This document shows, piece after piece, positions 15,147 to 34,150 of a DNA stretch of 34,150 nt (position 1 is the first letter of the stretch; each line of letters opens with the position of its first letter). The DNA is from Microbacteriaceae bacterium. Lineage in GTDB: Bacteria; Actinomycetota; Actinomycetes; Actinomycetales; Microbacteriaceae. The notes beneath the pieces were generated by a model that ran no database searches, was not told the DNA's origin, and was given only the letters and a program-made list of their open reading frames with translations. A program made the position numbers and the translations under genes. Where the stretch lies: contig CANGGK010000010.1 of NCBI GenBank assembly GCA_947453475.1, forward strand, positions 1 through 34,150, given 5' to 3'.

Positions 15147-15168
15147 GTGCCCCCCCGGAATTCTGAAT

Positions 15169-16275: not shown

Positions 16276-16832
16276 TAGCTGAGGTCCACAACTGCTGGTT
16301 TGCCTAGTTTCTTCATAAGCGCTACGACACGCGTCAGGGCCCAGGGTAGAACAAGAAGATTTCCATCCTCGGCAGAAATCGCAACTGCCAACGAATCCTT
16401 GAACTTAGCCGCCTTCGGGTTCAATTCTGACCATGTGCCGGTTTCAAACCCGAGGCCCTCAAGCCATTGCTTCGCATTTGCGCCGAGGAGGCCATCCAAC
16501 TCATCCCAAGATACCCCGTTCAGAGTCGGGTAGTCTTTGCCACCAGGGCGTAATGCGCGCAACAGGGCAACCCACTTACCATCCTCGCGAATTTGAACAG
16601 TCATGACTCCGTTGCGGGTCAAGTGACTGTAGAGGGGTGGTGGGCTAGACAAAAATTCCGAGAGACGCACGTGGATCGTTCCGTCTGGGTGAGATTGCAC
16701 CGCCACTTCCGCGTGTAAACCGTCTGGTGACTCGAGATCAGAAATACTAGAGTCAACCTCTTGGCCTGAAATAGCAACTCGCGCAGACCTTTGATTCACC
16801 TTCAGCAATAGGCTGGCAACTTGATGTGTCAT
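16275..16832 (-). CDS. 185-aa protein of unknown function in the defence operon
   Basis: No family recognised. I place the start at ATG 16832 (MTHQVASLLLK) rather than the tracked 16847, because GGGGGAG sits 6 nt before it and would otherwise be inside the coding sequence. The protein looks like a small alpha/beta fold: an N-terminal beta-rich half (VAISGQEVDSSI, AEVAVQSHPDGTIHVRL), a WDELDGLLGANAKQWLEGLG helical region, and a C-terminal LPWALTRVVALMKKLGK helix. It starts 27 nt after the methyltransferase stop and its stop overlaps the HEPN start by 1 nt. A small protein tightly coupled to a HEPN gene could be its partner or antitoxin. That is inference from position only. Confidence 0.7.
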   Translation of the reverse strand: MTHQVASLLLKVNQRSARVAISGQEVDSSISDLESPDGLHAEVAVQSHPDGTIHVRLSEFLSSPPPLYSHLTRNGVMTVQIREDGKWVALLRALRPGGKDYPTLNGVSWDELDGLLGANAKQWLEGLGFETGTWSELNPKAAKFKDSLAVAISAEDGNLLVLPWALTRVVALMKKLGKPAVVDLS

Positions 16833-16859
16833 AGATATCTCCCCCATATTTTGATGAGC

Positions 16860-19800
16860 TTACAACTGAGCGGCACGAAATACTCTTCTAGCCAAGTTCT
16901 CAGAGAGGTTTACGCCGTTTGCGTTCTCGCGAGTTGATTTCATGACTTGGCGATACCAGATGTTTAAGGGGCGCCAATGCTCTTCGAGTCCGAGCTCTCT
17001 CAAGAGGGCCGAGTCAAATTTGTCTGTGATTTCGCGAAGTGCACTCCACCGGATGTTTGATTGGTACCAGCCGGCATTCTGAGACGCAAACGTCGCTGTG
17101 TAGCCAGCTTGGATAACCTCGGTAGCAAGTCGCGTTAGGTTTTCAGAACCTGAGACAGTCAGTGCAAACAATCGTGGTTTCAACGATTCAGATGTTTTTG
17201 TGTGAAAATCATCACCTGACGCCGACCACCAGAGATATCCAATTTTGCCTGCAAGTACTCCTAATGCCGTCAACTCGCTCTCGTCAGGCAGCAGTTGAAT
17301 CGAGGGAACCCCTGGATCGAGTTCGGCGGTCAATTCTCGCTCAGCCGAGAGTACGGAAGGAATTTCCGGCAGAGCTGGAAACCAATAGCTTCCAGTCTTT
17401 CGCAGATAAATACTCCGAGTAGACAGTCCTTTACCAGGCGGCTGTTTGGCTTTTGAAATAGTCTCCACAAGTTGATTGGCGATTCCCGACCTAAAGGGGG
17501 CGCTGTCGCCGACTCGATTAAGAGGGAAGTACTCAATGTTTTTAAACATGGTTCCTCTTGAGGCCTTAGTGAAAATTTGCTGCGAAGTTGAAAAAACTCC
17601 TTTGCCAGGCGCCAGAATTAGAATTGTGTTACGAACCTGGACTCCGGTGAATAGGGAGTCCGGACGTTTGCCGAAGGTGCTCCACCATTCAGCGCCATCT
17701 CGGCAGCTTATTCGTTCTCGCAGTCTGTCAAAGCCGCTAGAGAATGCCAGGTTTAGCATCACGATAAAGGCATGGCGACCTGAGTCGGCGAGAAGTGAAA
17801 GCGACCGTTCGTAGCAGACGGCGAACAGGTCTGGCGCATTAGTGGTGAAATAGCCGCGGAAATCACTCGTATCAGTGTCACGACGTTGAACGTATGGGGG
17901 ATTTCCAATAACAACATCAAATCCGCCGCGAGCTGCTATTTGAGGGAACTCAGCAAACCAGTGGAATGGACGTTTTTTTGAAATCCAATCCGTAACATCT
18001 GCCTCGGGGATGAACAGCATTCTTGCAAGGGCCAAGTCGCATGCGGCAGTGATCTCTTTGTTAAGGCGCACGAGCGTGGCTTTGTCAGATGTGTTTGTGC
18101 CATTCCCCTGAACTGAGCTTTCAACGAAATTGAGGTAGGCCTGGGCATAACTCTCGATTTGGGGCTCAATCGCAGCTAACTCAAGTCGAGAGGTTAGGTC
18201 GCCTTCGGAAATGCGTTCGATGTCATCCAGATCTTTAATGCCGACGACAAGATTGCCTGGTTTGAAATTGAAATCTAAGTCTGGTAGCGGCTCAATTTCC
18301 GCGGATGAATCTAAACAGGCGGCCAAGGCAAGAAAGACGCGAAGTTTTGCCGTTTCAATCGCGTCAGGCATGAGGTCTGTGCCGTACAGATTACTTAGTG
18401 CAGCCTTTTTACGAATGAAGTAGCGTCGACTTGGATGAATATTCAGTTCTTCAATCAACGACCTTGCAAACTCATTTGTTCCGGTGAACATCTCTGCCGC
18501 ATCGAGCAAAGCGCTGTAAATGTCCTCAAGAACTTCAAGCGCTGCGAATAAAAATGCTCCTGAACCGCAGGTGGGATCGATAACACTGATTCTAGAAATG
18601 CCATTCCACAGTATCTCGATGTCATTGCCGTCATCGAGAGAATGTAAGGCGTCTAGAAGCAGCAGCTGGCTATCTAGGTTAAGAGTGACCAAATTATTGA
18701 CTTCGCTAATCTGGCCGCCGGCAATCTTTTGTCGCAAAGCTTCTACTCGTTCGCGTCGATGAAACATTTCAACAAATGATTCGCCTGGTAGGCACACGGC
18801 GCTATCGGGGGCAGCCGAATCTAAGTCACCCCACTCAATGGGGTCACCTTGCCAAAGAAGTTCGAGTCGTCCTTCAACTCTGATCCAATCCTCTGCTTGC
18901 GAGTCCCATCCATGTGTCAGAGAGTCCTGAATGTATCTGTCGCCGCTCAGGGGAATCAGCGACAACGGGGTAAGCCCCTCGGCGATGAGGAGATCTAGAA
19001 TGCGCGGAACAAGTGTTTGGCCGACCATGTAGCCGGAAACGTCTTGCTTCGTGTAGTAGGCGCCGTTTTCCTTTTTTCCACCGACAGTAAAATTGATGTA
19101 CTGCTCGAAGATGTAGCCGAGCACTTCAGGATTGATTTCATCCGATTTACCAGTCGGGCGAGTATCCAGATGCCATGTAAATGACTCGAAAAATTCAAAA
19201 ATGTCGCTGAAAACCTGATCTGGAATTTGAATGTCATTGGAGGACTCAAGAGTTGTTTCTCCAAATATTCCGCCGTTAACATAGGGAACTTTTCCTAAAA
19301 TTCTTGCAACAGCAGGCGATCTATAGCTTTGCTTTGCATCGTTTAGGCCATCAAAGAAGAGGGTAAGCAACAAATCTTTGTAAAAATTGTAAAATCTGTC
19401 CCCGGAGTTCAGAGCCTGTAACTTGGCCAAGCAAGTCTGCAAATAGAACGCGTCGCCGTTTAGAAACTCTTTTTTCTGCAAAAAGAAGATGAACATCAAG
19501 CGATTCAACAAAAGTGTGGCGTAAGAGCCGCAATCCTCTGCGTTCAGCCCGGAAATAGAACCGGCGAGTAACGAGTGATTTTTTCGAAATCGATCATAGA
19601 ACTTTTTAGTTACGTTAGAAGTATCGAAAGCGCCACGCAATTTTTCACGTAAATTCGTAACCGAGACTCCTTGCATAATTTCCGACGCACTATAACGAAG
19701 GCCAGCAAGACGTTGGGCCAAAAACACTGGCAAATGATTGCTCTGGACTACGATTTTTTCGTGAGTTAGAGTGCCGCCGGCAGTTTTTTTGGGCCACAAC

Positions 19801-20102
19801 CAAGTCTCAGAGTTTTTGGTCCGGATGACCAATAGGTGTTCTACATACCTTAATCCGACTTCGCGAGAAAGGTCATTTTGGAGTTGTGGAGAAACGTTGT
19901 CAACGGCTGTGAAGTCAAAATCGAAAACAGCAATCGCAGCGAGCATACTTGCGGTTTTGTTGCCCTTCACCTCGACACCATTGAGTTGAAAAGACACCTG
20001 CTCATCAGCTTTGACATCCCATCCGAGAACATCGCGAAAGACAGACTTCAAGCCGCCTGCCGAGAATGAATTGAGGACTTGTTGGTAAATGGGAGTTGTC
20101 AT
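16860..20102 (-). CDS. Eco57I/PglX-like N6-adenine DNA methyltransferase
   Basis: 1080 residues. SAM-binding motif I is VIDPTCGSGAFLF (~507-519) and the catalytic motif IV is GNPPYVQRR (NPPY ~734-737), diagnostic of N6-adenine methylases of the Eco57I/type IIG/PglX group. GAYYTKQDVSGYMV (~347-360) is the usual lead-in block. The ~340-residue N-terminus has a short LLVIRTKNSETWLW strand pair but I cannot see a convincing PD-(D/E)XK site, so I do not call it a self-contained restriction enzyme. The C-terminal ~300 residues should hold the target-recognition domain. The ATG overlaps the stop of the PLD-SNF2 gene by one base (TAATG). Length and order match DrmMI or PglX of DISARM/BREX-type systems, where it marks self DNA. 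Confidence 0.92.
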   Translation of the reverse strand: MTTPIYQQVLNSFSAGGLKSVFRDVLGWDVKADEQVSFQLNGVEVKGNKTASMLAAIAVFDFDFTAVDNVSPQLQNDLSREVGLRYVEHLLVIRTKNSETWLWPKKTAGGTLTHEKIVVQSNHLPVFLAQRLAGLRYSASEIMQGVSVTNLREKLRGAFDTSNVTKKFYDRFRKNHSLLAGSISGLNAEDCGSYATLLLNRLMFIFFLQKKEFLNGDAFYLQTCLAKLQALNSGDRFYNFYKDLLLTLFFDGLNDAKQSYRSPAVARILGKVPYVNGGIFGETTLESSNDIQIPDQVFSDIFEFFESFTWHLDTRPTGKSDEINPEVLGYIFEQYINFTVGGKKENGAYYTKQDVSGYMVGQTLVPRILDLLIAEGLTPLSLIPLSGDRYIQDSLTHGWDSQAEDWIRVEGRLELLWQGDPIEWGDLDSAAPDSAVCLPGESFVEMFHRRERVEALRQKIAGGQISEVNNLVTLNLDSQLLLLDALHSLDDGNDIEILWNGISRISVIDPTCGSGAFLFAALEVLEDIYSALLDAAEMFTGTNEFARSLIEELNIHPSRRYFIRKKAALSNLYGTDLMPDAIETAKLRVFLALAACLDSSAEIEPLPDLDFNFKPGNLVVGIKDLDDIERISEGDLTSRLELAAIEPQIESYAQAYLNFVESSVQGNGTNTSDKATLVRLNKEITAACDLALARMLFIPEADVTDWISKKRPFHWFAEFPQIAARGGFDVVIGNPPYVQRRDTDTSDFRGYFTTNAPDLFAVCYERSLSLLADSGRHAFIVMLNLAFSSGFDRLRERISCRDGAEWWSTFGKRPDSLFTGVQVRNTILILAPGKGVFSTSQQIFTKASRGTMFKNIEYFPLNRVGDSAPFRSGIANQLVETISKAKQPPGKGLSTRSIYLRKTGSYWFPALPEIPSVLSAERELTAELDPGVPSIQLLPDESELTALGVLAGKIGYLWWSASGDDFHTKTSESLKPRLFALTVSGSENLTRLATEVIQAGYTATFASQNAGWYQSNIRWSALREITDKFDSALLRELGLEEHWRPLNIWYRQVMKSTRENANGVNLSENLARRVFRAAQL

Positions 20103-23100
20103 TACATCGTCTCTCTAACGAATCCGAAGCTGAGCACTATTTCAAGATCTGTGGAATGGGACCCGAGCTGGTCCAGGAGTTCACCATTACGGTGAAGTTC
20201 TACGATAGCCCGGACCGTTTCTAGGGCACCATTCTTATGACGCGCGCGATAAATTTCTCTAGATTTATCCTCTGCAGTTTTGAAAATTGGGTAAGCCAGA
20301 AGAGACGTGGCAATAGTTTCAACATCGCTAGATAGATCATCTGGTGTTTCGCCAGAGCCAGCGAATTCTGTCAGCAGGCTATAAACATTCCTGCGTATGC
20401 CATGGTTTAGAAGAACCTTGGTTTGGTTGGCTTGTGGCGCGATGGCCTCTTTCACCATGAGTTCCACATTCTCCAAATGCCCTGGGATTTCCGGCGCTGA
20501 TGCCTCTCCGGGTTCACTCGCTGTTAGTTTTAGGGCTTCAAGCTGTGTGATGGTCCTCGTTGAACCAGCGCTATCGATACTGGCAAGTAGGTCAACCGGG
20601 GCGTTGTCATTTTGAGTCACTTTTGAGTGAACCAGTGAGACAGTTTTGCCTTGCATGTCGTACTTGGTTGTTGAGACACCAACTGGTAGAGCCGCGGCTG
20701 CATTTCTCTCCGCTTGAGTTGCGCCGTCCCAAATACCAAGGGCGTAGGAGCCGTAATCCACTTCTCCTTCATATGCTGCAAGTTCGTGTTTGCCATCAAA
20801 CATTCCTTCGAGGTCAAACTCGTCATCGCCAAAGTCTTGCGCGAGAATGTCCTCTCCACCGCCGAAAATGTCTTGGTTGGTTTGCAGGCGCTTGGCAAGG
20901 CGCTTAATAAGCGTTATGCGGTCATCCACGCTTTCATGAGGCATAAAAGATAGAGCATGAATGGTGTCAGATTTTTGACCTATTCGGTCAACGCGACCAG
21001 CTCTCTGGATCACTTTAATAATCGTCCACGGTAAATCCCAGTTCAAAACCAGTGCGCTGTCTTGAAGGTTCTGTCCTTCGGAAAGAACGTCCGTGGCCAG
21101 AAGGACCTGAAGTTCGGTCGAATCCTTCGGGAGCCCACCAAGACTCTTATTGGATTCAGGCGAGAAGCGTCTAGCGAGAATCGTTGGGTTGTCGGAGTCG
21201 CCTGACACAGACCCAATTTGGACATTAGGGCAAAGCGGTGCCAGATACTTGGCGATGTAATCGATCGTGTCTTTGTATTCGCTGAAAACTAGAAGTTTCT
21301 CAGTGGCGCCAAGGTTATTTATTCTTTCAGCCAAGGCGATCAGCTTGCTGTCGTGGGCAGGATCCCAGTCGCCAAACTCATCGACTATAGCCTGGAGTAC
21401 TGCATTGTCCTCGGCAACTGCTTTCGAGAATTCGTGAGATTTAAAAAGTTCGTGGCGCGCCCAACGCAGGCCCCGGGGTGTGGAACTCAGCAACTTCGCA
21501 TATGACTTAGCTGCGATTTCATTCCAAGCACCAGCAGTCAGACCCTTGACCCATGACGCGGCAAGGTTGTCTGATGAAGTTTCCCCGTCAATGACGATGT
21601 CCCCATCAATGCCCTTATCGCTGTCAGAAAGAGCGTAGGCGCGATCATCCAGCGTGCCAATAGGGACAGCCAAGCCGTTGTCTAATGCATATTTGAGAAC
21701 GTGCGCACGATGAAGCATCTTTTCAACCGTTATGAAAAAGGCCATTGGAGAAGACGCCAACCGTTTCAAGACAGTTGTCTTAATAAATCCGTTGGTGGAG
21801 TTAGCTCGCAGCATGTCTTCAAGAAGTGATTTTTCGCTGTCAGTTTCAGGCTTAATCTCAGGTAGGAGATAGCGACCTGGTTGGTAGCGGGCATAGTTCA
21901 TGTGATCAAGTGCTTCGAAATTCTCTAGCGAGGCCAATCGATCGCCTGGGTCGTTGGGGCCTCCCTGATATTTGAGGGGCATTGAAATTCGTTTAGGAAA
22001 ACTAAATTTCGTTCCGTCGTTGAAGCGGAAGAATATGCGGCCGGTTTCGGCGTCTACCTCACCATAGGTTTCCTCAAGATAGCGGCGCGTGCGTCGCACA
22101 AGGTATTGGCCTAGAAGTCGCTGCCAGTCTTTGGGAAAGGCTGACTGTTCGAAAGCTTCGAGCGTCGAAAGGCGCCCATTTGTTTTTTGAGCCAACTGGA
22201 ACTCACCGTCCTGCCCAAGGCTGGCGATGTGCTCCTCCGGGCGGATGCCCAAATCCTGATCAGTTGGAAGTTTCAGTTTCAGTTGACCGCTGATATCGAA
22301 GTGGTCTGCGTTGAACATCGTTGCAGTCATTAAAACAACGTCAGAATTCCATGTTTCGATGTAGTCGTGGATTACTTGCCAGTCATTCCGAGACGTGTGG
22401 CGGATATTGTGGGATTCATCCACGAGAACGAGCTTGTGAGGAACCAGGTCCGGCAGGTCCTTTTTCACCATGCTAAGGCTCATTACCTTGCCATGAATCT
22501 CATAAGTATCCAGGTGTTTTTGCCACATCGTTACCAGGTTCTTTGGGCAAATAATCAGAACTCTCTCACCATAGGTAGCAGCGATAGCAGTTCCTGTGAG
22601 GGTCTTACCCAATCCGACGACGTCACCAATTACAGCTAGGCCGCGTTGCTTGAGCATTCTGGTTGCTACACGAACCGCCGACTCCTGCCAAGGAGTTAAG
22701 TCCGCCGCGACAATCGCCGGGATATCTAGATTTCTTCCTGCCCGGGCATCCCTCGATAGTTCGTAGGCCATCTTGAGGTGTACTAAGCGGGGGCTAGGTT
22801 GATCGATTGTCGCCCAAGAGTTCTCGAGAACCTCGATAAGCAAATTAGTAATGTCAACGCTGAAATTGTCCGACCACTTATCAGTGAACCACTTGTATAG
22901 CTTTTGGCCTTGCTGAACGTCAGATTCTTCGAGATTCAGCTCACCCTGGTGATGCATGCCGGCAGCAGTAAAATTCGAGGACCCAACAATCGCTCTGAAA
23001 TTCTGGACAGGACCAGCGAGATGGCAAACATATAGTTTTGCGTGAAGGGGGTTGCGGGCCGCGAACTTTACCTTTAGAAATCCTGAACGAAGATCGTCGA

Positions 23101-23479
23101 GTAGGTCTCGAATGCCATTTCTATCGTGTTCTGTGGGTGCACCCCAAGTTAGCTGTTGCGCGAATTCTCGAACAGCTGCCTTTGCTTGCATGACCGCTTT
23201 GGTTAGCCCCATATCATTCGAGTCATCAGCGCCTAAAATCGACAAATACGATTTCGTTTGCTCACTGCCAGATAAAGCCATGCCAACAAGTAGTCGAACG
23301 CGCTCGGGAGAATCATCGATGTCTGCGTGGCTCTGCATCGCATGCAGTTCCTCGCGGAGCCCCTGCCATCCACGCAAGTTGAAGTAGCCAACGCACGCAT
23401 CGAGCTGTCGGCTGCTCGGGAGGTGTTCGCGAAGGACACCAAGTAGCTGTACGTCTTCGTTGTCGATAATTCTTGACAT
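20102..23479 (-). CDS. PLD-nuclease/SNF2-family helicase fusion
   Basis: 1125 residues, first gene of the defence operon, with ATG 23479 preceded by GGGGGA. The N-terminal ~230 residues form a phospholipase-D-type nuclease domain: PLHAKLYVC (H-x-K at 146-148), then IVGSSNFTAAGM and GELNLE. An SNF2/HepA-type helicase follows: GDVVGLGKT (Walker A, ~285-293), VLVDESHNIRH (DESH, ~354-357), LMTATMFN (motif III), and near residue 830 the motif VI stretch IQRAGRVDRIGQ. A ~200-residue C-terminal helical extension has no recognised fold. Only one HxK half-site is seen, so the nuclease would have to dimerise. SNF2 (DrmD) and PLD (DrmC) are separate proteins in DISARM, and here both functions lie in one chain. 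It would be a DNA-translocating nuclease. Confidence 0.9.
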   Translation of the reverse strand: MSRIIDNEDVQLLGVLREHLPSSRQLDACVGYFNLRGWQGLREELHAMQSHADIDDSPERVRLLVGMALSGSEQTKSYLSILGADDSNDMGLTKAVMQAKAAVREFAQQLTWGAPTEHDRNGIRDLLDDLRSGFLKVKFAARNPLHAKLYVCHLAGPVQNFRAIVGSSNFTAAGMHHQGELNLEESDVQQGQKLYKWFTDKWSDNFSVDITNLLIEVLENSWATIDQPSPRLVHLKMAYELSRDARAGRNLDIPAIVAADLTPWQESAVRVATRMLKQRGLAVIGDVVGLGKTLTGTAIAATYGERVLIICPKNLVTMWQKHLDTYEIHGKVMSLSMVKKDLPDLVPHKLVLVDESHNIRHTSRNDWQVIHDYIETWNSDVVLMTATMFNADHFDISGQLKLKLPTDQDLGIRPEEHIASLGQDGEFQLAQKTNGRLSTLEAFEQSAFPKDWQRLLGQYLVRRTRRYLEETYGEVDAETGRIFFRFNDGTKFSFPKRISMPLKYQGGPNDPGDRLASLENFEALDHMNYARYQPGRYLLPEIKPETDSEKSLLEDMLRANSTNGFIKTTVLKRLASSPMAFFITVEKMLHRAHVLKYALDNGLAVPIGTLDDRAYALSDSDKGIDGDIVIDGETSSDNLAASWVKGLTAGAWNEIAAKSYAKLLSSTPRGLRWARHELFKSHEFSKAVAEDNAVLQAIVDEFGDWDPAHDSKLIALAERINNLGATEKLLVFSEYKDTIDYIAKYLAPLCPNVQIGSVSGDSDNPTILARRFSPESNKSLGGLPKDSTELQVLLATDVLSEGQNLQDSALVLNWDLPWTIIKVIQRAGRVDRIGQKSDTIHALSFMPHESVDDRITLIKRLAKRLQTNQDIFGGGEDILAQDFGDDEFDLEGMFDGKHELAAYEGEVDYGSYALGIWDGATQAERNAAAALPVGVSTTKYDMQGKTVSLVHSKVTQNDNAPVDLLASIDSAGSTRTITQLEALKLTASEPGEASAPEIPGHLENVELMVKEAIAPQANQTKVLLNHGIRRNVYSLLTEFAGSGETPDDLSSDVETIATSLLAYPIFKTAEDKSREIYRARHKNGALETVRAIVELHRNGELLDQLGSHSTDLEIVLSFGFVRETM

Positions 23480-25513: not shown

Positions 25514-27613
25514 CTAATCCGAGTAGTCGGGTATGATCTGAGGCAAACTATCGAAGAGCGCTTTCGATTTCTTAGCCAGGTATTGGCCATATACTTCCGG
25601 CAAATGCGTCGTGAAATAGCCCCTAGGGTCAAGCTGGTCCGCTGCCTTCAGTAATAATTCGTGAACGTGTTCTTCTGCGGCGCCGTATTTAGAGGCGCTG
25701 GAATCTAAGGTTTTGAAAATGGAAATCTTTGGTAAGTCATCCGGCTGAGAGCGGCCCTCAAAGTGGCGCTTAATCAACGGCGCAAAATATGCCCTCAAAA
25801 GCGTCAATTCAAGATGGTTTTTGTCCCACGGTGCTAGCTCAATTAGGCGAGAAAGGCGTCCGGCCTCCCCAAGGTGCGACAAGCCCCACACCCAACTCCC
25901 GTATTGTCCCAGTCTCGCTATCAATTTATCTTTGGTCAATCCAAAGTAGTGCTCAGCCAGCACAAAGGCTTTGTCCTCCAAAGAAATGCAGTGGCAGCCA
26001 GGCAGAGCGCCGTTGCACGTGTCGCACTTGGTCAAGCCGTCCTCTCTCAGGCTCTCGCAAATTAGTACTGCATCTACGGCACCCAATAGGTCTTCAACAC
26101 TTTCCTGAAGAAGGGCCTCGGGTTCAGATTCAAACATAAGAATGCTGTCAAGTAGCAGTTCATTGCGTTTTCTAAACTCCCTATAAAGAGACAGAGTGAA
26201 TCCGTTATGCGAAGTCTCAATGGTGAATTTCAGAAGCGCATCTAGCTGTGACAAGGAGTCTTCTTTTGCTTTTTCAGATTTTGAAATTGTTGCTTCAAAA
26301 GAGGCAATCGATTTTAGAAGTTTTTCGACTTCAACTCTCCGTTTTGTGAGCTCGGTGCGCAATGGCCTGGCCTCAGAATCTAGCTTCTGATGAGCGACAA
26401 TTATCTGTTTTGATTGGGCTTCCGCAATCGAAATTCCCCGAGATATGTCCGTCGGTGAGGGAGAAAATTTGGCCGGGAAAAGGTTTGAAATCAATCGGCG
26501 CAACGCACCCACGTTGTTGCCGGCAGCGATTTTCGTGAAGCCTGTCAAAGTGTAAGTGAAATCCGGAATCTGAAGTTCGCTGTTTTTTAGCTTGGACAGT
26601 GTTTTGCGCACTTCGGCTATTTCTATGTCTAGCTGAACTAGAGACCGTTCCACGAAAATGGAAGGTTTGCATTCGCAATCGTTAAGAACATCGTTGCAAT
26701 AATGCCAATGGTCCTTTTCGAGAGACAGACGGTTCAATAGTCGAAGGAGAATCTCATTTCTGACTTTCTGAACCAACAAGCTAAAGAATGCAGTGCCGTG
26801 CTCTTCCATCGCTTGGAGAATTCCCATGCGCTGCGACTCCGAGTACTCACTCAGTTCCTCTGACTGGGTTACGGCCGACAGAAGGTAATCGCTGATCTTC
26901 AAATCTTTGAGGATTAAAATATCCGATAAAGCAGCCCGCAGCGCGGCCACGATTTGCCCATTGCTGCTGTGGAGCGCAAACAAAGTTCTAGTGTCAATGC
27001 TTATCTCGAGTTCCGCATCAAGCACAGTGAGCTTCTCTTCGAGCCCTAAAACGTTTTGGCTCTCAATCTCTAGAGCCTTTGCGACCGCATTCGCGGAATG
27101 CTTGTTTGCGCTAATTGCTTGTTCCGAATCTTGGAGACCCAGGGCAAGCTTTCTAGCATGTCGAGTCACCGCTACTCGAGCTGTAGGCGAGAGGGGCGAT
27201 TCGAACTTCCCGAGGCTAGCAACCATGGGCTCTGCTAAGAAAAGCTCCCTTGCTGAAGGCACGTTTTGCTTTCGGCCTCGGTCAAGATTCCCACTCGACC
27301 CTTCGGCTGGGTTTTTCTTTCCCTCCTGAGCTGTTGCTCTCGGTGGGCCGAGCGGCTTTAAACCCTTTTCAATGAGGATTAGGTTTGCCTGGTTGTACGC
27401 CTTGGGGAAAAGCTTGAGCCAACCTGCTGGGTCTGCGGTAAACCAAGCCTCATGCTGTCTTTGGGCTTGTGCTGTGGTGGTGAAAAGTTGTTTGTTGTAA
27501 GAAAGGCCATGTGCAATACAGGCGTCTACGAATCGGATGAAATCTCTTTGATAGTCAAATGGGGGCTCCAGGTTGGCTAGTGCCGCCCGCATTTCTTCAA
27601 TTATTTTTTTCAC
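25514..27613 (-). CDS. Long coiled-coil protein with C-terminal Cys cluster
   Basis: 699 residues, GTG start with GGGGGT about 4 nt upstream. The N-terminal ~75 residues form a helical domain (FVDACIAHGLSYNKQLF..., HEAWFTADPAGWLKLFP). A charged Pro/Gly-rich linker (~90-115) and ~400 residues of heptad-rich helix follow (LEEKLTVLDAELEISI, KRRVEVEKLLKSIASFEATI). A CDTCNGALPGCHC cluster lies near residue 530, then a helical C-terminal domain. No Walker A/B motifs are present, so it is not an SMC ATPase despite the coiled-coil look. No family recognised. It could be a structural or sensing component. Its upstream 426-bp gap separates it from the divergent type IV nuclease gene. Confidence 0.72.
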   Translation of the reverse strand: MKKIIEEMRAALANLEPPFDYQRDFIRFVDACIAHGLSYNKQLFTTTAQAQRQHEAWFTADPAGWLKLFPKAYNQANLILIEKGLKPLGPPRATAQEGKKNPAEGSSGNLDRGRKQNVPSARELFLAEPMVASLGKFESPLSPTARVAVTRHARKLALGLQDSEQAISANKHSANAVAKALEIESQNVLGLEEKLTVLDAELEISIDTRTLFALHSSNGQIVAALRAALSDILILKDLKISDYLLSAVTQSEELSEYSESQRMGILQAMEEHGTAFFSLLVQKVRNEILLRLLNRLSLEKDHWHYCNDVLNDCECKPSIFVERSLVQLDIEIAEVRKTLSKLKNSELQIPDFTYTLTGFTKIAAGNNVGALRRLISNLFPAKFSPSPTDISRGISIAEAQSKQIIVAHQKLDSEARPLRTELTKRRVEVEKLLKSIASFEATISKSEKAKEDSLSQLDALLKFTIETSHNGFTLSLYREFRKRNELLLDSILMFESEPEALLQESVEDLLGAVDAVLICESLREDGLTKCDTCNGALPGCHCISLEDKAFVLAEHYFGLTKDKLIARLGQYGSWVWGLSHLGEAGRLSRLIELAPWDKNHLELTLLRAYFAPLIKRHFEGRSQPDDLPKISIFKTLDSSASKYGAAEEHVHELLLKAADQLDPRGYFTTHLPEVYGQYLAKKSKALFDSLPQIIPDYSD

Positions 27614-28039
27614 TTGACCCCCAAGGCTATTTCGTAAAGACTAGCAAACCGGCATCGTTGCAGCGGCTGCACGACGAACGTATTCAGGTCCCACGTCGCA
27701 CCGCGCACAAGAGTAGGCTGCCCCCTCGGGGGAGGGGGCAAAGTTGAGCCGACCCAAACACTGCGAACCTTCGATGTGAGTGACACGTTAAGTCGGGAGA
27801 CAAACATTTGGCTCGAGGTATTACTTTGCCGAGTGCTAAGCGAATTCTCTGGTCGAAGTAGTGACCATGACGAATTTCTTTGGATTACTCCCGCCGATTT
27901 AGATTCGCTGACGTAGGCAACTCCAGACATCCCTGCGGTTCAATTACTGCGCTGGCTCGGTGATTTGGGTGCGCTCTCCAGCTAGAGAGAGCGTGGCTAG
28001 GCTTAGTTATAGGGATGCAAACACAAAGTGGGAGATCAA
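27614..28039. promoter_or_regulatory. 426-bp divergent intergenic region with hairpins
   Basis: No convincing gene is present. It lies between the divergent coiled-coil and type IV nuclease genes and should carry both promoters. Two clear inverted repeats stand out: TGCCCCCTC-GGGG-GAGGGGGCA (27719-27740, a 9-bp perfect stem) and CGCTCTC-N8-GAGAGCG (27972-27993), the second about 47 bp before the nuclease start. The tracked 106-aa reverse ORF here has no ribosome site and is low-complexity. Confidence 0.45.
27719..27740. repeat. G/C-run hairpin (9-bp stem, 4-nt loop)
   Basis: TGCCCCCTC and its exact complement GAGGGGGCA flank GGGG. There is no T-tract on either side, so an operator, an RNA leader structure for the minus-strand gene, or a cruciform are all possible. 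Confidence 0.5.
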
Positions 28040-28963
28040 GTGACGCGTTATTACAGAGTAAGTCTCGGCAAAGGCGGAGTTTACGCACCAGATGCGGTAG
28101 CCCAGGGGTGGGTCGGCACCGGTTGGATGGCTGATCTTGACCTGACGGGAAAGTTCCCTGCCGTTTGGAAGGAGTTTAATCGCGATTACATCCCCGTGAT
28201 AATGGCGAGTGGTGAATCTACCAACAAAATTGGCGCTGGCCTTGCGTGTGGAATGACTTGGACCGTGGCGGAGGGGCTCAGCGAGGGTGATGTGGTTTTA
28301 AGCTCCAACGGCAAGGGCTATTTTCACGTTGGAAAAATTACGGGGGCGTATTTCTATGCTCCTGGAGAAAAGTTACCTCACAGGCGTCCGATCGTTTGGT
28401 TTCCAGAGCTGATCGATAAGAAGGCCATGTCTGAAGAGTTGACCAGAAGCATTGGTGGTCTTGGCACCGTCCAATCCCTTGATGGCTTTGCTGCAGAAAT
28501 AGAGCGCATCCTGTTAGGAAATGTCCCAGAGATCGTTGTAAATGAACAAGATGTCGAGAACCCTGTGTCATTTGTTCTCGAAAAGCACCTGGAGGACTTC
28601 CTAGTGAGTAACTGGGAAAGAACAGAGCTGGGAAAAAACTTTGACATCTATGAAGAAGATGGCGAGAAGGTCGGGCGGCAATTTCTTTCAGATACCGGCC
28701 CCCTGGATATCCTTGCTGTCAGCAAAGATCGAAAGTCCTTGCTGGTGGTCGAACTAAAACGCGGCCGAGTCAGCGATGTTGTGGTTGGCCAGATCCAGCG
28801 TTACATGGGGTACGTAAAGGAAGAATTGTGCGAGCCGGGGCAGGAGGTCCGAGGAATCATTATCGGTCTTGACGATGACAAGAAAATCCAGCGCGCCCTC
28901 GTTGTCGCGCCACAGATCGACTTCTATCGCTATGAGGTCAGTTTCAAGCTGACCAAGGGATAG
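28040..28963 (+). CDS. Probable type IV restriction endonuclease (PUA/EVE-like + NucS-like nuclease)
   Basis: 307 residues from GTG 28040 (MTRYYRV), chosen over the tracked GTG 28028 because GGGAG lies 5 nt before it. The first ~120 residues have an EVE/PUA-like pattern (YYRVSLGKGGVYAPDA, GLSEGDVVLSSNGKGYFHVGKITGAYFYAPG, HRRPIVWF), the fold that reads modified bases in modification-dependent restriction enzymes. The C-terminal ~140 residues carry a PD-(D/E)XK nuclease of the NucS/DUF91 kind: FVLEKHLEDFL, DTGPLDILAV (D223), LLVVELKRG (E238-x-K240) and GQIQRYMGYV. The combination predicts cleavage of phage DNA with modified bases. The front-domain call is weaker than the nuclease call. It stands alone, behind a 7-bp hairpin. 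Confidence 0.75.
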   Translation: MTRYYRVSLGKGGVYAPDAVAQGWVGTGWMADLDLTGKFPAVWKEFNRDYIPVIMASGESTNKIGAGLACGMTWTVAEGLSEGDVVLSSNGKGYFHVGKITGAYFYAPGEKLPHRRPIVWFPELIDKKAMSEELTRSIGGLGTVQSLDGFAAEIERILLGNVPEIVVNEQDVENPVSFVLEKHLEDFLVSNWERTELGKNFDIYEEDGEKVGRQFLSDTGPLDILAVSKDRKSLLVVELKRGRVSDVVVGQIQRYMGYVKEELCEPGQEVRGIIIGLDDDKKIQRALVVAPQIDFYRYEVSFKLTKG

Positions 28964-29254: not shown

Positions 29255-29584
29255 ATGAGTGAAGTTGATCAGAAACTTTGGGCGTCGATTTTGAGATCGA
29301 AGCAGGTGCTTGCTTCCGCAGGTGAATTCTGGAACTTGATGCGATGGGTCATTCTGGGCACCCAGTTGGTATTTGCCGTCTGGGCTGCAGCTACTGGTCT
29401 GGGCTGGGGAGATGCACTGAAGTTCATCGTCTACGCAAACATCGTGATGGTCCTTAACCATTTGATCAAATTTGCGTTATCCAAGTACGAACTGTCGATC
29501 GCCAAGACTGAGGCAGAGTTGGCCTATCGGCTTGACTATGCTGACTTCGCAAGCAAACTTATAAAGGGAGGCAGTTTTGACTAA
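29255..29584 (+). CDS. Small membrane protein, two predicted TM helices
   Basis: 109 residues with two hydrophobic stretches at about 31-50 (WVILGTQLVFAVWAAATGLG) and 55-74 (LKFIVYANIVMVLNHLIKFA), separated by a short WGD turn. The N-terminal helix and C-terminal tail (KTEAELAYRLDYADFASKL) are charged and probably cytoplasmic, which suggests a hairpin in the membrane. No family is recognised. The ribosome site is weak. The 3' end overlaps the next gene by 8 nt, so the two are translationally coupled. A two-TM protein paired with a soluble partner is a layout seen in membrane-effector defence pairs, but nothing here proves that role. Confidence 0.7.
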   Translation: MSEVDQKLWASILRSKQVLASAGEFWNLMRWVILGTQLVFAVWAAATGLGWGDALKFIVYANIVMVLNHLIKFALSKYELSIAKTEAELAYRLDYADFASKLIKGGSFD

Positions 29585-30521
29585 TGCTCCGACATTTATT
29601 GCTAGAAAATATTCTGTCGGCAAAGAACCGGTAGAGCTTTCGGGCTCTGGAGAGGATCTTGAAGCCGGCGCTCTCGCGACTTTCAACCCAGTTGCTGCGG
29701 ATGACTGGATTGAGCTCAATTTGAAAGCCGGTATTGATCGCTTCAAAGCGGCCCAATGGTTTGCGTTTGACGCATCCGAGGAAATTATCTTGGAAGAAGA
29801 GCCTGAGGGGTGGTGGTCGAGAGATTTCGAGCCGGACCGAGACGATCTTGAGCGCCAGATGGGGGCAGTACCCCGGTTTGTTTTCCTGACTCAAGATTCA
29901 ACGACTTGGCAAGTTGTTCAACTTGTAGTTGGCGAGAAGCCAGTCAAGTTCTTGAGGTCTTTGACGGATGCATATGTGGCAACCGATCGATATGATTCCG
30001 AGCGTGTCTTGGCTCAGTTTTCTTATCACTCCGATGGCCCTGGTCCAATTTCTTGGTCTGGCAGCTTCGCCATACTGGATGTTGGGTCGTATTTGCTTTA
30101 CACAACCGATGGCGACAGCGTCGATGACGATAGTGCGTATGCGAAGCCGAGTTCGCTCGCTTCGGAGCTTTCGAGTTGGCTTGCCGATTGCAGTGCAAAG
30201 TACCTTTATGTGCTTAATTCGTCTCAAATCGACTGGCTAGATCTTGAAAAAAAGGCCGAATATGTTCGATTACTCTCCGACCTGGATGAATTTTCTCAGG
30301 TGAGCATGAATCTTACCGATGATGAGAAGTCACAGCTCGAAGGTCATTTAGCGCAGAATGATCGACAAGTTGGTGAATTGCTGGCCTGGTTCGGCGACCC
30401 AGCCGGGGCTTACGCAGATAAGTTGATCGCCGGCGTGAGAGAAGCAATCAATGACAATTCAGGAAGTCTTCTGTCTGACAGCCAAGACATAATCGATTAC
30501 TTCAATCGGCAGGAAGTCTAA
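29577..30521 (+). CDS. Soluble protein of unknown function, partner of the membrane protein
   Basis: 314 residues starting at TTG 29577, supported by GGGAGG 6 nt upstream inside the end of the membrane-protein gene. The protein is acidic with many Asp/Trp residues (ADDWIELNLKAGIDRFKAAQWFAF, EPEGWWSRDFEPDRDDLERQ), a middle alpha/beta region, and a helical tail with DFNR-like ending DIIDYFNRQEV. No membrane segment and no recognisable catalytic motif. The 8-nt overlap with the upstream gene implies that they act together. It is followed by an inverted repeat and then the terminator of the purL-fragment side. I cannot name a family. Confidence 0.7.
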   Translation: MTNAPTFIARKYSVGKEPVELSGSGEDLEAGALATFNPVAADDWIELNLKAGIDRFKAAQWFAFDASEEIILEEEPEGWWSRDFEPDRDDLERQMGAVPRFVFLTQDSTTWQVVQLVVGEKPVKFLRSLTDAYVATDRYDSERVLAQFSYHSDGPGPISWSGSFAILDVGSYLLYTTDGDSVDDDSAYAKPSSLASELSSWLADCSAKYLYVLNSSQIDWLDLEKKAEYVRLLSDLDEFSQVSMNLTDDEKSQLEGHLAQNDRQVGELLAWFGDPAGAYADKLIAGVREAINDNSGSLLSDSQDIIDYFNRQEV

Positions 30522-30647: not shown

Positions 30648-30685
30648 TGAAAACCCGCCAAGCCCCAAAGCTTGGCGGGTTTTCA
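30648..30685. terminator. Terminator hairpin, left copy of the purL terminator
   Basis: TGAAAACCCGCCAAGC and its exact complement form a 16-bp stem with a 6-nt CCCAAA loop. The A/T arms provide a T-run on both strands, so it can act bidirectionally. It lies in the same position after the purL fragment as the right-hand hairpin does after purL. Confidence 0.88.
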
Positions 30686-30978
30686 ACAACCAAAAAAGAA
30701 CTACTTAGCCAAACAACTCAGCCAAAGTGCCCTTGTGCGCAGCACCTAGGTCGCCTAGGTTCCAGTTCGCGATGTCCTGAATCTCTAGGTGGCCTGAGTT
30801 GTCGGTGACGCCGATGCGGAGTACTGGAATTCCGCAGGCTTCGCAGAGGCCGAAGAACTTCACCTCATCCTCGCGACCAATAGAAACAATCACGCGGCCG
30901 GTTGACTCTGAGAACAGAGCGGCGGTGCGGTCAACGCCATCGCGCTTACAGGTCTCGCCAAGCGAGATGCGGGCACCT
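30648..30978 (-). repeat. Left direct repeat: purL 3' end plus terminator
   Basis: About 331 bp, roughly 93% identical by eye to 33684-34014 in the same orientation, with one small indel after the hairpin. Homology stops abruptly at GGGCACC (30978). Beyond that the sequence is unrelated. Together with the right copy it brackets the restriction-modification genes. Confidence 0.85.
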
Positions 30979-31001
30979 ATTTCGATTCGAGAGACACTCA
31001 T
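30705..31001 (-). pseudogene. purL 3'-terminal fragment (truncated duplicate)
   Basis: About 90 codons match the C-terminus of the purL gene at the right edge of the window, with about nine amino-acid changes, and both end in AELFG-stop. It lacks the SAHDLSEAG motif and everything before it, so it cannot make formylglycinamidine ribonucleotide synthetase. An in-frame ATG at 31001, with GGGGATC before it, supplies about eight unrelated codons, so a 98-residue peptide could be made. I treat it as a relic of the duplication. The MTase ORF of the track (30799 start) runs antisense through this fragment by chance. Confidence 0.85.
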
Positions 31002-31003
31002 GA

Positions 31004-31053
31004 GATCCCCAAAATGTCAGTGGATTGACTTAGGATCTTCGAAGGAGAGTGAA
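31004..31053 (+). promoter_or_regulatory. MTase leader with two GATC sites
   Basis: The short gap before the methyltransferase start holds GATC at 31004-31007 and 31034-31037, a TAGGAT (31031-31036) that could be a -10 element, an 8-bp palindrome CTTCGAAG (31037-31044), and the AAGGAGAG ribosome site. If the system targets GATC, methylation here could tune its own promoter. Confidence 0.3.
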
Positions 31054-32310
31054 ATGACCTACACGACGAAGAAATATGAAGAACCTGCAAGCCCAGTAGG
31101 TACTGTTGCAGAGTTATTCGCGGGTGTAGGAGGTTTCAGAATCGGGCTGGCGCCTGCTGGCTTCAAGACGGTCTTTTCAAACCAATGGGAACCTTCAACC
31201 AAAACCCAACACGCATCTGATGTGTATGTTGCAAACTTTGGAAGCGAAGGTCACTGCAACGAAGATATTGCAACCGTAGACGCTATTCCTGAAGTTGATT
31301 TGCTTGTAGGAGGTTTTCCTTGCCAGGACTACTCGGTTGCTAAATCTTTGAATTCATCCAAGGGGCTCGAAGGCAAAAAGGGAGTCCTGTGGTGGGAAAT
31401 TCTCAGGTTAGTAAAGCAAGCGAAGCCAAAATCTATCTTTCTTGAAAATGTGGACCGCCTATTGAAATCTCCGTCTGCACAGCGAGGGCGCGATTTCGCA
31501 ATCATGTTAAAGACCCTCGGATCTCAGGGATATTTGATTGAGTGGCGGGTGGTTAGTGCGTCGGATTACGGATTCCCTCAAAGGCGCATTCGGGTATTCA
31601 TTGTCGCCACTCGAAACTCAACCGTGCCATCGAGTGCAAGGGAATTTGTAACCAAGTCGGGGGTGCTTGCTCGCGCTCTCCCGGTTTCGGCACACACCGC
31701 CGAGGAATCCGTCTTTCTGCTGGATGACGAACCGGATGTTATTTCTCAATCATTCAATCTAGGGTCGGCCAAGTCGCCATTCCTCAACGCTGGCGTTTAT
31801 TTTGACGGGGAAGTTCATACATTTAAGACCCAGTCAGCATACGCAGGTCAAAAAAGCACACTTGGCGACGTTATTCTGCCGAATGCCGAGGTCGAAGACG
31901 GGTATTTCGTCGACCCAGACAGATTGGCGGAATGGGAGTACCTGAAAGGCGCTAAGACAATCGAACGCACGCACAAAGGGAGTGGAGCGTCATACAACTA
32001 TGCCGAGGGAAAAATGGCTTTCCCTGACTTGCTTACCAACCCCAGTCGAACCATCCTGACGGGGGAAGGTGGCACTTCACCATCTCGGTTCAAGCACATC
32101 ATAAAAACGGACGAAGGGTTTAGACGCTTGACTCCAACAGAGCTAGAACGACTAAACGGCTTTCCGGACGGATGGACTGCCTTGGGCGCCGACGGGAAAC
32201 AAATCTCTGATGTCCGACGCGCGTTCTTCATGGGGAATGCTCTTGTCGTGGGGCTCATTGAGCGCGTGGGAAAAGTCCTCGCAGAGGATATTCAAGCCAG
32301 ACGAGGTTAA
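31054..32310 (+). CDS. C5-cytosine DNA methyltransferase (type II, probable GATC)
   Basis: 418 residues from ATG 31054 (MTYTTKKYEEP), with AAGGAGAG upstream. The tracked start at 30799 only extends through the antisense of the purL fragment. All C5-MTase motifs are in order: I ELFAGVGGFRIGL (~20-32), IV GGFPCQDYSV (catalytic Cys 90), VI FLENVDRLL, VIII DYGFPQRRIRVF, and IX-X TPTELERLNGFPDGW ... MGNALVVGLIERVG. The variable region between VIII and IX holds the target-recognition domain. It protects host DNA from the endonuclease 30 nt downstream. Because that enzyme is Sau3AI-like, the likely product is GAT-m5C. M.Sau3AI has a similar length (about 410 residues). Confidence 0.95.
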   Translation: MTYTTKKYEEPASPVGTVAELFAGVGGFRIGLAPAGFKTVFSNQWEPSTKTQHASDVYVANFGSEGHCNEDIATVDAIPEVDLLVGGFPCQDYSVAKSLNSSKGLEGKKGVLWWEILRLVKQAKPKSIFLENVDRLLKSPSAQRGRDFAIMLKTLGSQGYLIEWRVVSASDYGFPQRRIRVFIVATRNSTVPSSAREFVTKSGVLARALPVSAHTAEESVFLLDDEPDVISQSFNLGSAKSPFLNAGVYFDGEVHTFKTQSAYAGQKSTLGDVILPNAEVEDGYFVDPDRLAEWEYLKGAKTIERTHKGSGASYNYAEGKMAFPDLLTNPSRTILTGEGGTSPSRFKHIIKTDEGFRRLTPTELERLNGFPDGWTALGADGKQISDVRRAFFMGNALVVGLIERVGKVLAEDIQARRG

Positions 32311-32340
32311 TTCCCTTATCTAGGGGACTTTAGGGGGAGC

Positions 32341-33666
32341 ATGTTTCAGGAAAAGTACGACAAGTCGTCAGTCGATTCAATTGTTTCGTATTCAAATTTA
32401 CTCACTGGGAAAACCTTGGATGAGGTTGTCACGCTTCCTGGCAAAGTTGAAAATCTCAAAAATAAAGGCGACTTGGGTCGCTTGATTGAAACTCACTTCT
32501 TCGAAATCGACCCGTCAAACCAGCAAATCGACTTCCCAGAAGCCGGGCTCGAACTCAAGGTCACTGGGTTACTTAGGAGGACCGACGGCTCATTCTCGGC
32601 GAAGGAGAGGCTCGTCCTTGGGATGATTAATTTTCACGCTCTGATCGAGGAAGACTGGGAAACGTCCTACGTCTACATCAAATGTCAGTTGATGCTGATC
32701 CTCTTCTACCTTTACAACAAGGATGTGCGAAGAATAGATCAAAAATTCGTTTTAGCGCCTTTGCTTTACCAAATAACCGAGTGGGATGAAGCGGAGCTAA
32801 AGCGGGATTGGCAGATCATCCGCGCAAAGGTAATTGCGGGAAAGGCCCACGAGCTCTCGGAAGGCGACACGTTCTTGCTAGGAGCATGTCGAAAAGGCGC
32901 GGGCGGCGAAAAAGAAGCACTTCGAAGTCAACCTAAATCCAATGTTCTAGCCAAGAGTCGGGCTTTTTCGTTCAAAACCTCCTACCTAAACCGAATCATT
33001 CAGCGTCATCAAGGCGGGTACGCCCCCGTTGCAAACGCAGTCGACTACAACTTTGAGGATTCGATTCTTTTGAAGTTCAAGCCATTCTTAGGTAAGAATG
33101 TCAGAGCAATCAGCAGCGACCTTAACTTTCACAAGTCAGGAAAGAATCACAAGGGTTTCTTGAGCGACCTTTCCCGCAGGATGCTTGGCACCAGTAAGAA
33201 ATTGCTTCCAGAATTTCAAGACAATGCCATCGAAATGAAGACTGTTCGTCTCGAAGCAAATGGCATCCCGAGGGAACACATGTCATTTCCGCAAATCGAC
33301 TTTGATGAGATTCGTAATCAGACTTGGGAGGACTCGGAGTTCTTTGAGAAAGTAGAGCGGAAATTCCTGATTGTAGTTTTTGATCGGGACGACGACGGCC
33401 TAACCTTGTCCAAGGTTTTCTTCTGGAACATGCCGTATGAAGACCGACTTGTTGCCGGCGGTGTCTGGGAGGCAACTAAGGCAGCAATCGAGCGCAGCCA
33501 AACTAACTTCCCTCGAGCTAAAGCGTCGCGGGTCGCGCACGTTCGACCTAAAGCTAGGAATAAGCAAGACACCGCAGCTTTGCCAGATGGGTCACACTTC
33601 CCAAAACAGGCTTTTTGGCTTAATCGCGAGTACATCGCAGATGTGATTCGCAACTATCGAAGATAG
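32341..33666 (+). CDS. Sau3AI/MutH-family type II restriction endonuclease
   Basis: 441 residues with AGGGGGAGC directly before the ATG. The N-terminal domain matches the MutH/Sau3AI fold: KGDLGRLIETHFFEI, then QQIDFPEAGLELKVTGLL, in which D64-x6-E71-x-K73 has exactly the spacing of the MutH active site (D70, E77, K79). The C-terminal half is a second, Sau3AI-like domain (SFKTSYLNRIIQRHQGG ... MSFPQIDFDEIRNQTWEDS ... FFEKVERKFLIVVFDR), so overall it resembles Sau3AI, which cuts GATC. It lies 30 nt after the C5 methyltransferase, forming one operon. Cleavage specificity is inferred from the family. The active site appears intact. Confidence 0.9.
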   Translation: MFQEKYDKSSVDSIVSYSNLLTGKTLDEVVTLPGKVENLKNKGDLGRLIETHFFEIDPSNQQIDFPEAGLELKVTGLLRRTDGSFSAKERLVLGMINFHALIEEDWETSYVYIKCQLMLILFYLYNKDVRRIDQKFVLAPLLYQITEWDEAELKRDWQIIRAKVIAGKAHELSEGDTFLLGACRKGAGGEKEALRSQPKSNVLAKSRAFSFKTSYLNRIIQRHQGGYAPVANAVDYNFEDSILLKFKPFLGKNVRAISSDLNFHKSGKNHKGFLSDLSRRMLGTSKKLLPEFQDNAIEMKTVRLEANGIPREHMSFPQIDFDEIRNQTWEDSEFFEKVERKFLIVVFDRDDDGLTLSKVFFWNMPYEDRLVAGGVWEATKAAIERSQTNFPRAKASRVAHVRPKARNKQDTAALPDGSHFPKQAFWLNREYIADVIRNYRR

Positions 33667-33683
33667 CGACGGTCAGAAGTTTA

Positions 33684-33719
33684 GAAAACCCGCCAAGCTG
33701 CAAAGCCTGGCGGGTTTTC
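33684..33719. terminator. purL terminator hairpin (right copy)
   Basis: GAAAACCCGCCA and TGGCGGGTTTTC form a 12-bp stem around a 12-nt loop, with T-runs on both strands. It follows the end of purL on the minus strand and also closes the endonuclease gene on the plus strand. The loop side has diverged from the left copy, whose stem is longer. Confidence 0.85.
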
Positions 33720-34014
33720 AACTACTAAAAAGAACTACTTAGCCAAACAACTCAGCCAAAGTGCCCTTGTGCGCAGCACCTAGGTCGCCTAGGTTCCAGT
33801 TTGCGATGTCCTGAATTTCTAGGTGGTCTGAGTTGTCGGTGACGCCGATGCGCAGCACTGGAATTCCGCGGGCTTCACAGAGGCCGACGAACTTCACGTC
33901 ATCCTCGCGACCAACAGAAACTAGCACGCGGCCGGTTGACTCTGAGAACAGAGCGGCGGTGCGGTCAACGCCATCGCGCTCGCAGATCTCGCCAAGCCAG
34001 ATGCGGGCACCCAT
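33684..34014 (-). repeat. Right direct repeat: resident purL 3' end plus terminator
   Basis: Partner of the left repeat at 30648-30978, same orientation. Here the homology continues uninterrupted into the rest of purL, so this copy is the intact gene end. Confidence 0.85.
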
Positions 34015-34150
34015 GCCAAAGCGAAGAGTGCACTCAACAACAGCCTGAGCCAAACCGGCCTCAGATAGGTCGTGAGCCGAGGCGATTAGGCCCTGCTCGC
34101 TACCGGCGGCGATTGCCTCGGCAAGCTGCTTCTCGAACTTCAAGTCAACC
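33739..34150 (-). CDS. purL: Phosphoribosylformylglycinamidine synthase PurL, C-terminal part
   Basis: The frame is open to the window edge, so only the C-terminal ~137 residues are seen. SAHDLSEAGLAQAVVE is the conserved block of the AIR-synthase-related C-terminal domain of the large FGAM synthase subunit, followed by the RTAALFSESTGRVLVSV segment typical of PurL. PurL converts FGAR, glutamine-derived ammonia and ATP to FGAM in purine synthesis, in the cytoplasm. It is a core gene and marks the edge of the accessory region. Its last ~90 codons are duplicated 3 kb away on the other side of the restriction-modification genes. The tracked start at TTG 34143 is internal. Confidence 0.92.
   Translation of the reverse strand, partial: VDLKFEKQLAEAIAAGSEQGLIASAHDLSEAGLAQAVVECTLRFGMGARIWLGEICERDGVDRTAALFSESTGRVLVSVGREDDVKFVGLCEARGIPVLRIGVTDNSDHLEIQDIANWNLGDLGAAHKGTLAELFG

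Follow-up and report, generated by a model that had tools for sequence, protein, structure and literature searches.

How R-M and other defence genes that lack an integrase enter bacterial chromosomes is an old open question. Insertion of R-M genes with long target duplication was reportedly described by Nobusato et al. in 2000, and we know of no mechanism that has been agreed upon since. The class has been reviewed (PMC3874152), and six type II systems of H. pylori lie between repeats that measure 65-395 bp, show 86-98% intra-strain identity and occur as a single copy at empty sites (PMC10423294). In E. coli, a conjugation assay built to catch homology-facilitated illegitimate recombination gave duplications instead in 56 of 60 recombinants; these measured 109-950 bp in the sequenced clones and were explained by degraded, recircularised DNA and one crossover (PMC3240628). 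The T6SS effector-immunity arrays of Vibrio cholerae have been explained similarly (PMC5361080).

The stretch of DNA analysed here (34,150 bp, hereafter the window) is the entire contig C10 of a 76-contig, 1.37-Mb metagenome-assembled genome (MAG) of a freshwater bacterium of the Rhodoluna group in the Microbacteriaceae (genome G000). It carries a C5-methyltransferase/Sau3AI-like endonuclease pair flanked on both sides by a 331-bp direct repeat, whose copies are 93% identical and consist of the last ~94 codons of purL plus the terminator. Read leftward from the contig end, the order is the last 136 codons of purL, its terminator, the endonuclease gene, the methyltransferase gene, 57 bp, a second purL end and a further island (Table 1). 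Both R-M genes are intact and convergent with purL. The second purL end begins in the middle of the gene and keeps its stop codon and terminator, and the island continues beyond it.

An insertion of R-M genes at the purL 3' end, with a long and diverged direct repeat, had already been proposed from the letters of the window (the sequence-only reading), and both the repeat search and blastn agree with it. The repeat search paired copy 1 with 30649-30980, in blocks of 288 nt (94%) and 48 nt (90%), while blastn within the genome aligned the copies over 332 columns (93%, E=4e-140); its remaining matches were only those of each copy's own terminator palindrome on the opposite strand. A profile of the purL 3' end pushed the boundary of the fragment out to 30996. 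Across 89 codons the copies show nine amino-acid differences (Nei-Gojobori Nd=9), read from the open reading frames as W>S, I>T, E>K, L>I, V>I, D>E, V>F, R>C and D>G. The link to long target duplication drawn by the same reading also stands, as R-M genes are flanked here by long direct repeats of a chromosomal target. Taken alone, the G000 locus matches that class: a type II system lies between long, variable direct repeats of its target, in this case 331 bp at 93%.

Table 1. Features at the purL end of the window and in the adjoining older island.
Feature	Position	Strand	Basis
Resident purL, C-terminal 136 codons (contig ends inside the gene)	33739..34150	-	PF02769 AIRS_C; orthologues across Rhodoluna
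Repeat copy 1: resident purL end and terminator	33684..34014	-	93% to copy 2, E=4e-140
purL terminator palindrome, between convergent endonuclease gene and purL	33684..33735	.	Repeat search; same hairpin after purL in G005
Sau3AI/MutH-type restriction endonuclease (REase), 441 aa, predicted	32341..33666	+	PF02976 E=3.5e-34; PADLOC REase_II E=2.9e-65; Sau3AI 4pxg E=1.1e-46
C5-cytosine DNA methyltransferase (MTase), 418 aa, PCQ/ENV/QRRIR motifs, predicted	31054..32310	+	PF00145 E=4e-62; PADLOC MTase_II E=9e-144; HhaI methylase
Junction: ~57 bp of methyltransferase-gene 5' region fused to interior of purL fragment	30997..31053	.	Homology stops abruptly
purL 3'-end fragment, repeat copy 2, decaying	30705..30996	-	nhmmer E=3.3e-75; omega 0.42 vs resident
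Terminator copy after fragment, 17-bp stem	30648..30685	-	Repeat search
PDC-S02 candidate defence nuclease, older neighbour past the scar	28028..28963	+	PADLOC PDC-S02 E=1.9e-132
PLD-helicase, older island part common to G007	20105-23479	-	PADLOC; G007 homologues in same order
Type IIG-like methyltransferase/REase, older island part common to G007	16863-20102	-	PADLOC; G007 homologues in same order

Judged by its domains, the R-M pair is a Sau3AI-type type II system, in which an endonuclease of the Sau3AI/MutH fold adjoins a C5-methyltransferase, with a putative GATC specificity. Homologues of the endonuclease also occur off the purL contig in two other genomes (G013:C16:16197-17495 and G370:C19:1474-2772). 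Further into the island, a helicase resembling DruE of Druantia (7121-11797, minus strand; PADLOC DruE E=8.7e-190, MZB domain) has as neighbours (11793-16847) a protein of 1155 aa that matched no family and one with a weak HEPN_Swt1 match, a region that is possibly a divergent Druantia-type system. Two island proteins of 699 aa (25517-27613, minus strand) and 314 aa (29577-30521, plus strand) had no Pfam or PADLOC match and sit in the part of the island that G007 does not share.

To the divergence of the two copies the sequence-only reading had attached a further proposal, namely that the R-M unit arrived with a foreign purL end. Alignment to the purL genes of relatives, the comparison which that reading had itself put forward, went against this at the window locus. 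Among the genomes searched, the closest purL to the fragment is the local one (93.8%, followed by G007 with 90.7% and G005 with 89.1%), and five derived third-position bases are common to fragment and resident, while neither G007 nor G005 has them. Private changes number 11 in the fragment (5/2/4 by codon position) and three in the resident. Moreover, omega is 0.42 between fragment and resident, against 0.03-0.14 for resident orthologues. Given the shared derived sites, the neutral codon positions of the private changes and this omega, the window fragment is, on its substitution pattern, a decaying copy from the same lineage; the 93.8% local identity, the five shared derived sites and the omega of 0.42 count against a foreign origin, which we reject for this locus. 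Since dS between fragment and resident (0.11) is about half of that between G000 and G007 (0.215), the event is probably younger than the split of these two genomes.

We infer that the window event brought in DNA from a close relative rather than copying the local purL end. Local duplication fits the window equally well, because hardly any difference separated the two copies at the time of duplication. According to this alternative, the R-M unit would have inserted without purL homology, the insertion itself would have copied ~331 bp of the resident purL end (or would have fallen between tandem copies), and the fragment would then have decayed. It draws support from the silent sites, as ~5 silent differences are expected from the nonsynonymous decay and 7 were observed, which places the copies close to identity at the start. 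It also agrees with the derived sites that fragments share with their own resident (5 in G000 and 11 in the first of two fragments in G362, hereafter f1 and f2) and with differences that are mainly neutral.

The event is recurrent, which goes beyond the single locus considered by the sequence-only reading. In all, eight genomes yielded ten purL 3'-end fragments, a count based on short fragments and mostly on MAGs, in which ascertainment favours insertions whose breakpoint lies inside purL. All lie downstream of purL and in purL orientation, in the Rhodoluna genomes G000, G007, G006 (two), G362 (two), G017 and G008, and in G185 and G268 of other genera. They were recovered by searches with the purL C-terminus, by own-gene searches of ~70 downstream regions and by a profile search, in which reversed decoys gave no purL fragments at E<0.2; two further fragments at contig ends (G012 and G001) were left out of the count. 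The fragments start between 92 and 292 bp before the stop codon. Homology ends 2-8 bp past the stop, since the downstream DNA differs between strains from there, and passes beyond this only where the terminator is shared (G000 and G268).

The DNA between purL and fragment varies from genome to genome. It consists of the R-M pair in G000, a gene of unknown function for 134 aa in G007, and beta-helix surface protein and response regulator genes in G185. In G006, an unknown 587-aa gene is followed by two nucleotidyltransferase genes that form an AbiE-like pair, and a type I R-M system lies past the second fragment. G017 has Abi_2 and DUF4145 genes, and the same R-M pair as in G000 is also present further out; G362 has ABC transporter genes and then PLD-helicase and NUDIX genes. 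The insert of G268 comprises Cas9-Cas1-Cas2 and a 33-repeat array, the end of which lies ~20 bp from the fragment. No recombinase or integrase family was found among the insert proteins scanned with Pfam.

The fragment starts fall near four places in purL, at ~272, 216, 162 and 92-104 bp before the stop, some of which are common to different genera. By hand count there are ~6 close pairs where ~2.5 are expected, with a possible alignment bias, so that the grouping may reflect chance or such bias. Two further details concern the gene end itself. The resident purL of G007 ends TTTGCAAACTAG vs TTTGGCTAA in relatives (L034:13213-13230), and the G007 fragment keeps the ancestral GGCTAA stop; since this resident end differs both from relatives and from its own fragment, the insert would have rewritten the last codons of a functional purL. 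In G268, both purL ends are followed by the same 55-bp palindrome, which is likely the purL terminator (L141:2976-3030 and 10335-10389; 100% identity), although the coding parts are ~88% identical; with up to 3 mismatches allowed, the genome contains no further copy, and gene conversion is possible.

It is at the sister loci that copying and import can be told apart. Between the G185 fragment and its resident, 35 of 40 differences fall at third positions (dS 0.80, omega 0.03), and omega is 0.05 for f1 of G006. From this excess of third-position changes and these low omega values, we read the two purL ends at G185 and at G006 f1 as two functional alleles brought together, that is, as DNA imported with its own purL end. 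The import idea, which is not supported in its foreign-end form at the window, thus holds at these two loci. G268 is intermediate (dS 0.39, omega 0.14, one frameshift) and probably also represents two functional alleles. Decay is the prevailing signal in G000, G007, G362 and the short old fragments, where a copy is indistinguishable from a conspecific import. A repeat that is a copy of the recipient's own target is therefore compatible with G000 and G362 f1 and not with G185 and G006 f1, whose copies are distinct functional alleles. Moreover, local duplication leaves unexplained why the event recurs at one gene end with no recombinase. We regard it as the less probable account, though one that keeps appreciable weight.

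Comparison with other genomes indicates which of the two ends is old. In G238 (genus g80), which has no insert, purL directly adjoins the sequence that follows the fragment in G185, with 84.6% identity over 4.3 kb. Likewise, the DNA after f2 of G362 matches, from its first base, the DNA directly after purL in G028. On these two matches, the fragment is best read as the former purL 3' end, still beside its former neighbour, with newer cargo between it and the complete gene. At G185 and G006 f1, the displaced native end appears to be the fragment, and what may have arrived later is the end with which the 'intact' gene now finishes. The resident end of G185 is not provably foreign, because sliding identity shows affinities that shift along the gene, as recombination blurs them. 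The islands of G000 and G007 have common far parts and different purL-proximal parts, the pattern that entry of new cassettes at purL should produce. G006 departs from this simple ordering: of its two fragments, the one closer to purL has decayed further, suggesting the joint entry of two cassettes as one block.

Empty sites with one purL end were seen in other species (G014 and G238), and G007, the nearest relative of G000, carries a different insert and a fragment of its own. The sequence after the fragments of G000, G007, G006 f1, G008, G362 f1 and G268 had no match in the purL-proximal DNA of the relatives compared, and an empty-site comparison of G268 with G217, G077 and G312 gave no collinear flank.

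The account that we consider rather probable is an integrase-free, homology-anchored and additive insertion of cassettes at a purL-purA hotspot, of which the repeat is the scar; it would be a form of R-M insertion with long target duplication that is serial and extends to several kinds of system. The recombination steps and the transfer route, as we infer them, would run as follows. Incoming DNA would carry a purL 3' end followed by cargo (the R-M pair at the window locus), and this end would pair with the host purL by homologous recombination, so that a complete purL is kept. At its far end, the cargo would be attached by an illegitimate join within a purL 3' end, either on the chromosome, by homology-facilitated illegitimate recombination, or earlier, in a recircularised fragment that enters by one crossover. 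The purL 3' end from this join to the stop codon would be left behind with the previous downstream neighbour and decay, and repetition of the process would stack the cassettes. The junctions are abrupt with few shared bases. ComEC was present in 7/7 genomes tested, which makes transformation possible, and Ku was found in 0/7, which makes Ku-dependent joining unlikely; a different end-joining route would have to serve for recircularisation.

Islands at integrase sites typically have a 3'-end target, a direct orientation and a displaced 3' fragment. The purL loci share these three features, and their fragment starts look grouped at about four places across lineages, as could be expected if an integrase, since lost, recognised a site in the purL 3' end and its elements supplied a replacement for that end, in the manner of islands at tRNA genes. 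Nevertheless, no integrase occurs among the scanned insert proteins, the repeats reach ~400 bp, far above the length of an att core, and the spread of breakpoints from 92 to 292 bp before the stop rules out a fixed att site; we consider site-specific integration improbable. An assembly or binning artefact of the MAG is hardly credible. The contig does run on for just 136 bp beyond the repeat, and among 36 Rhodoluna purL contigs there are 8 whose end lies within 700 bp of the purL stop (3.1 expected, P=0.006), an excess for which mixtures of strains that differ in the DNA downstream of purL may be responsible. Against an artefact, the copies differ by 7%, and the single-contig genomes G006 and G268 have the same architecture.

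The proposed homology-anchored insertion at purL has parallels in several described systems. Unlike in insertion with long target duplication, one core-gene 3' end is reused here for many types of cargo, including CRISPR-Cas9, and at some loci the 'duplicate' is apparently an imported allele. One homologous anchor and one illegitimate junction would be shared with homology-facilitated illegitimate recombination and the single-crossover duplications of the laboratory (PMC3240628), whereas the present events are serial, occurred in nature and are deduced from sequence comparison. As in the T6SS arrays (PMC5361080), a conserved upstream anchor is retained while the 3' ends of old genes and their cargo are shifted downstream by incoming modules and form an array; the T6SS anchor is upstream of the variable effector module and extends into it, whereas the anchor here is a housekeeping gene and the cargo consists largely of defence genes. 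Finally, replacement flexible genomic islands (PMC4033161) are likewise hypervariable loci beside core genes of aquatic bacteria, exchanged by homologous recombination, but the purL cassettes are added, not swapped, and leave scars. No paper on purL as such an island site was found in the open-access literature searched. What is added to these systems is the purL-purA hotspot, its serial scars, the range of cargo and the demonstrated cases of two alleles.

The repeats at purL are old enough to date and diverse enough to separate copies from imports. Some 'duplications' are two alleles joined by transfer, in which the fragment marks the old end. This makes the mechanism testable by comparative genomics and transformation, and gives a simple scar to look for at other defence islands. 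A bolder and doubtful extension would be that the purL 3' end serves small Microbacteriaceae as the shared homology handle of an integrase-free cassette system, in which modules for defence (R-M, Abi, CRISPR-Cas9) would travel with part of purL attached and dock at the purL of any relative. The old end would be displaced, perhaps at favoured breakpoints, and the locus would be a readable record of defence acquisition. The recurrence of one scar next to various defence genes in related bacteria suggests that imported DNA brings such genes in together with a purL end of its own, while the old end stays behind.
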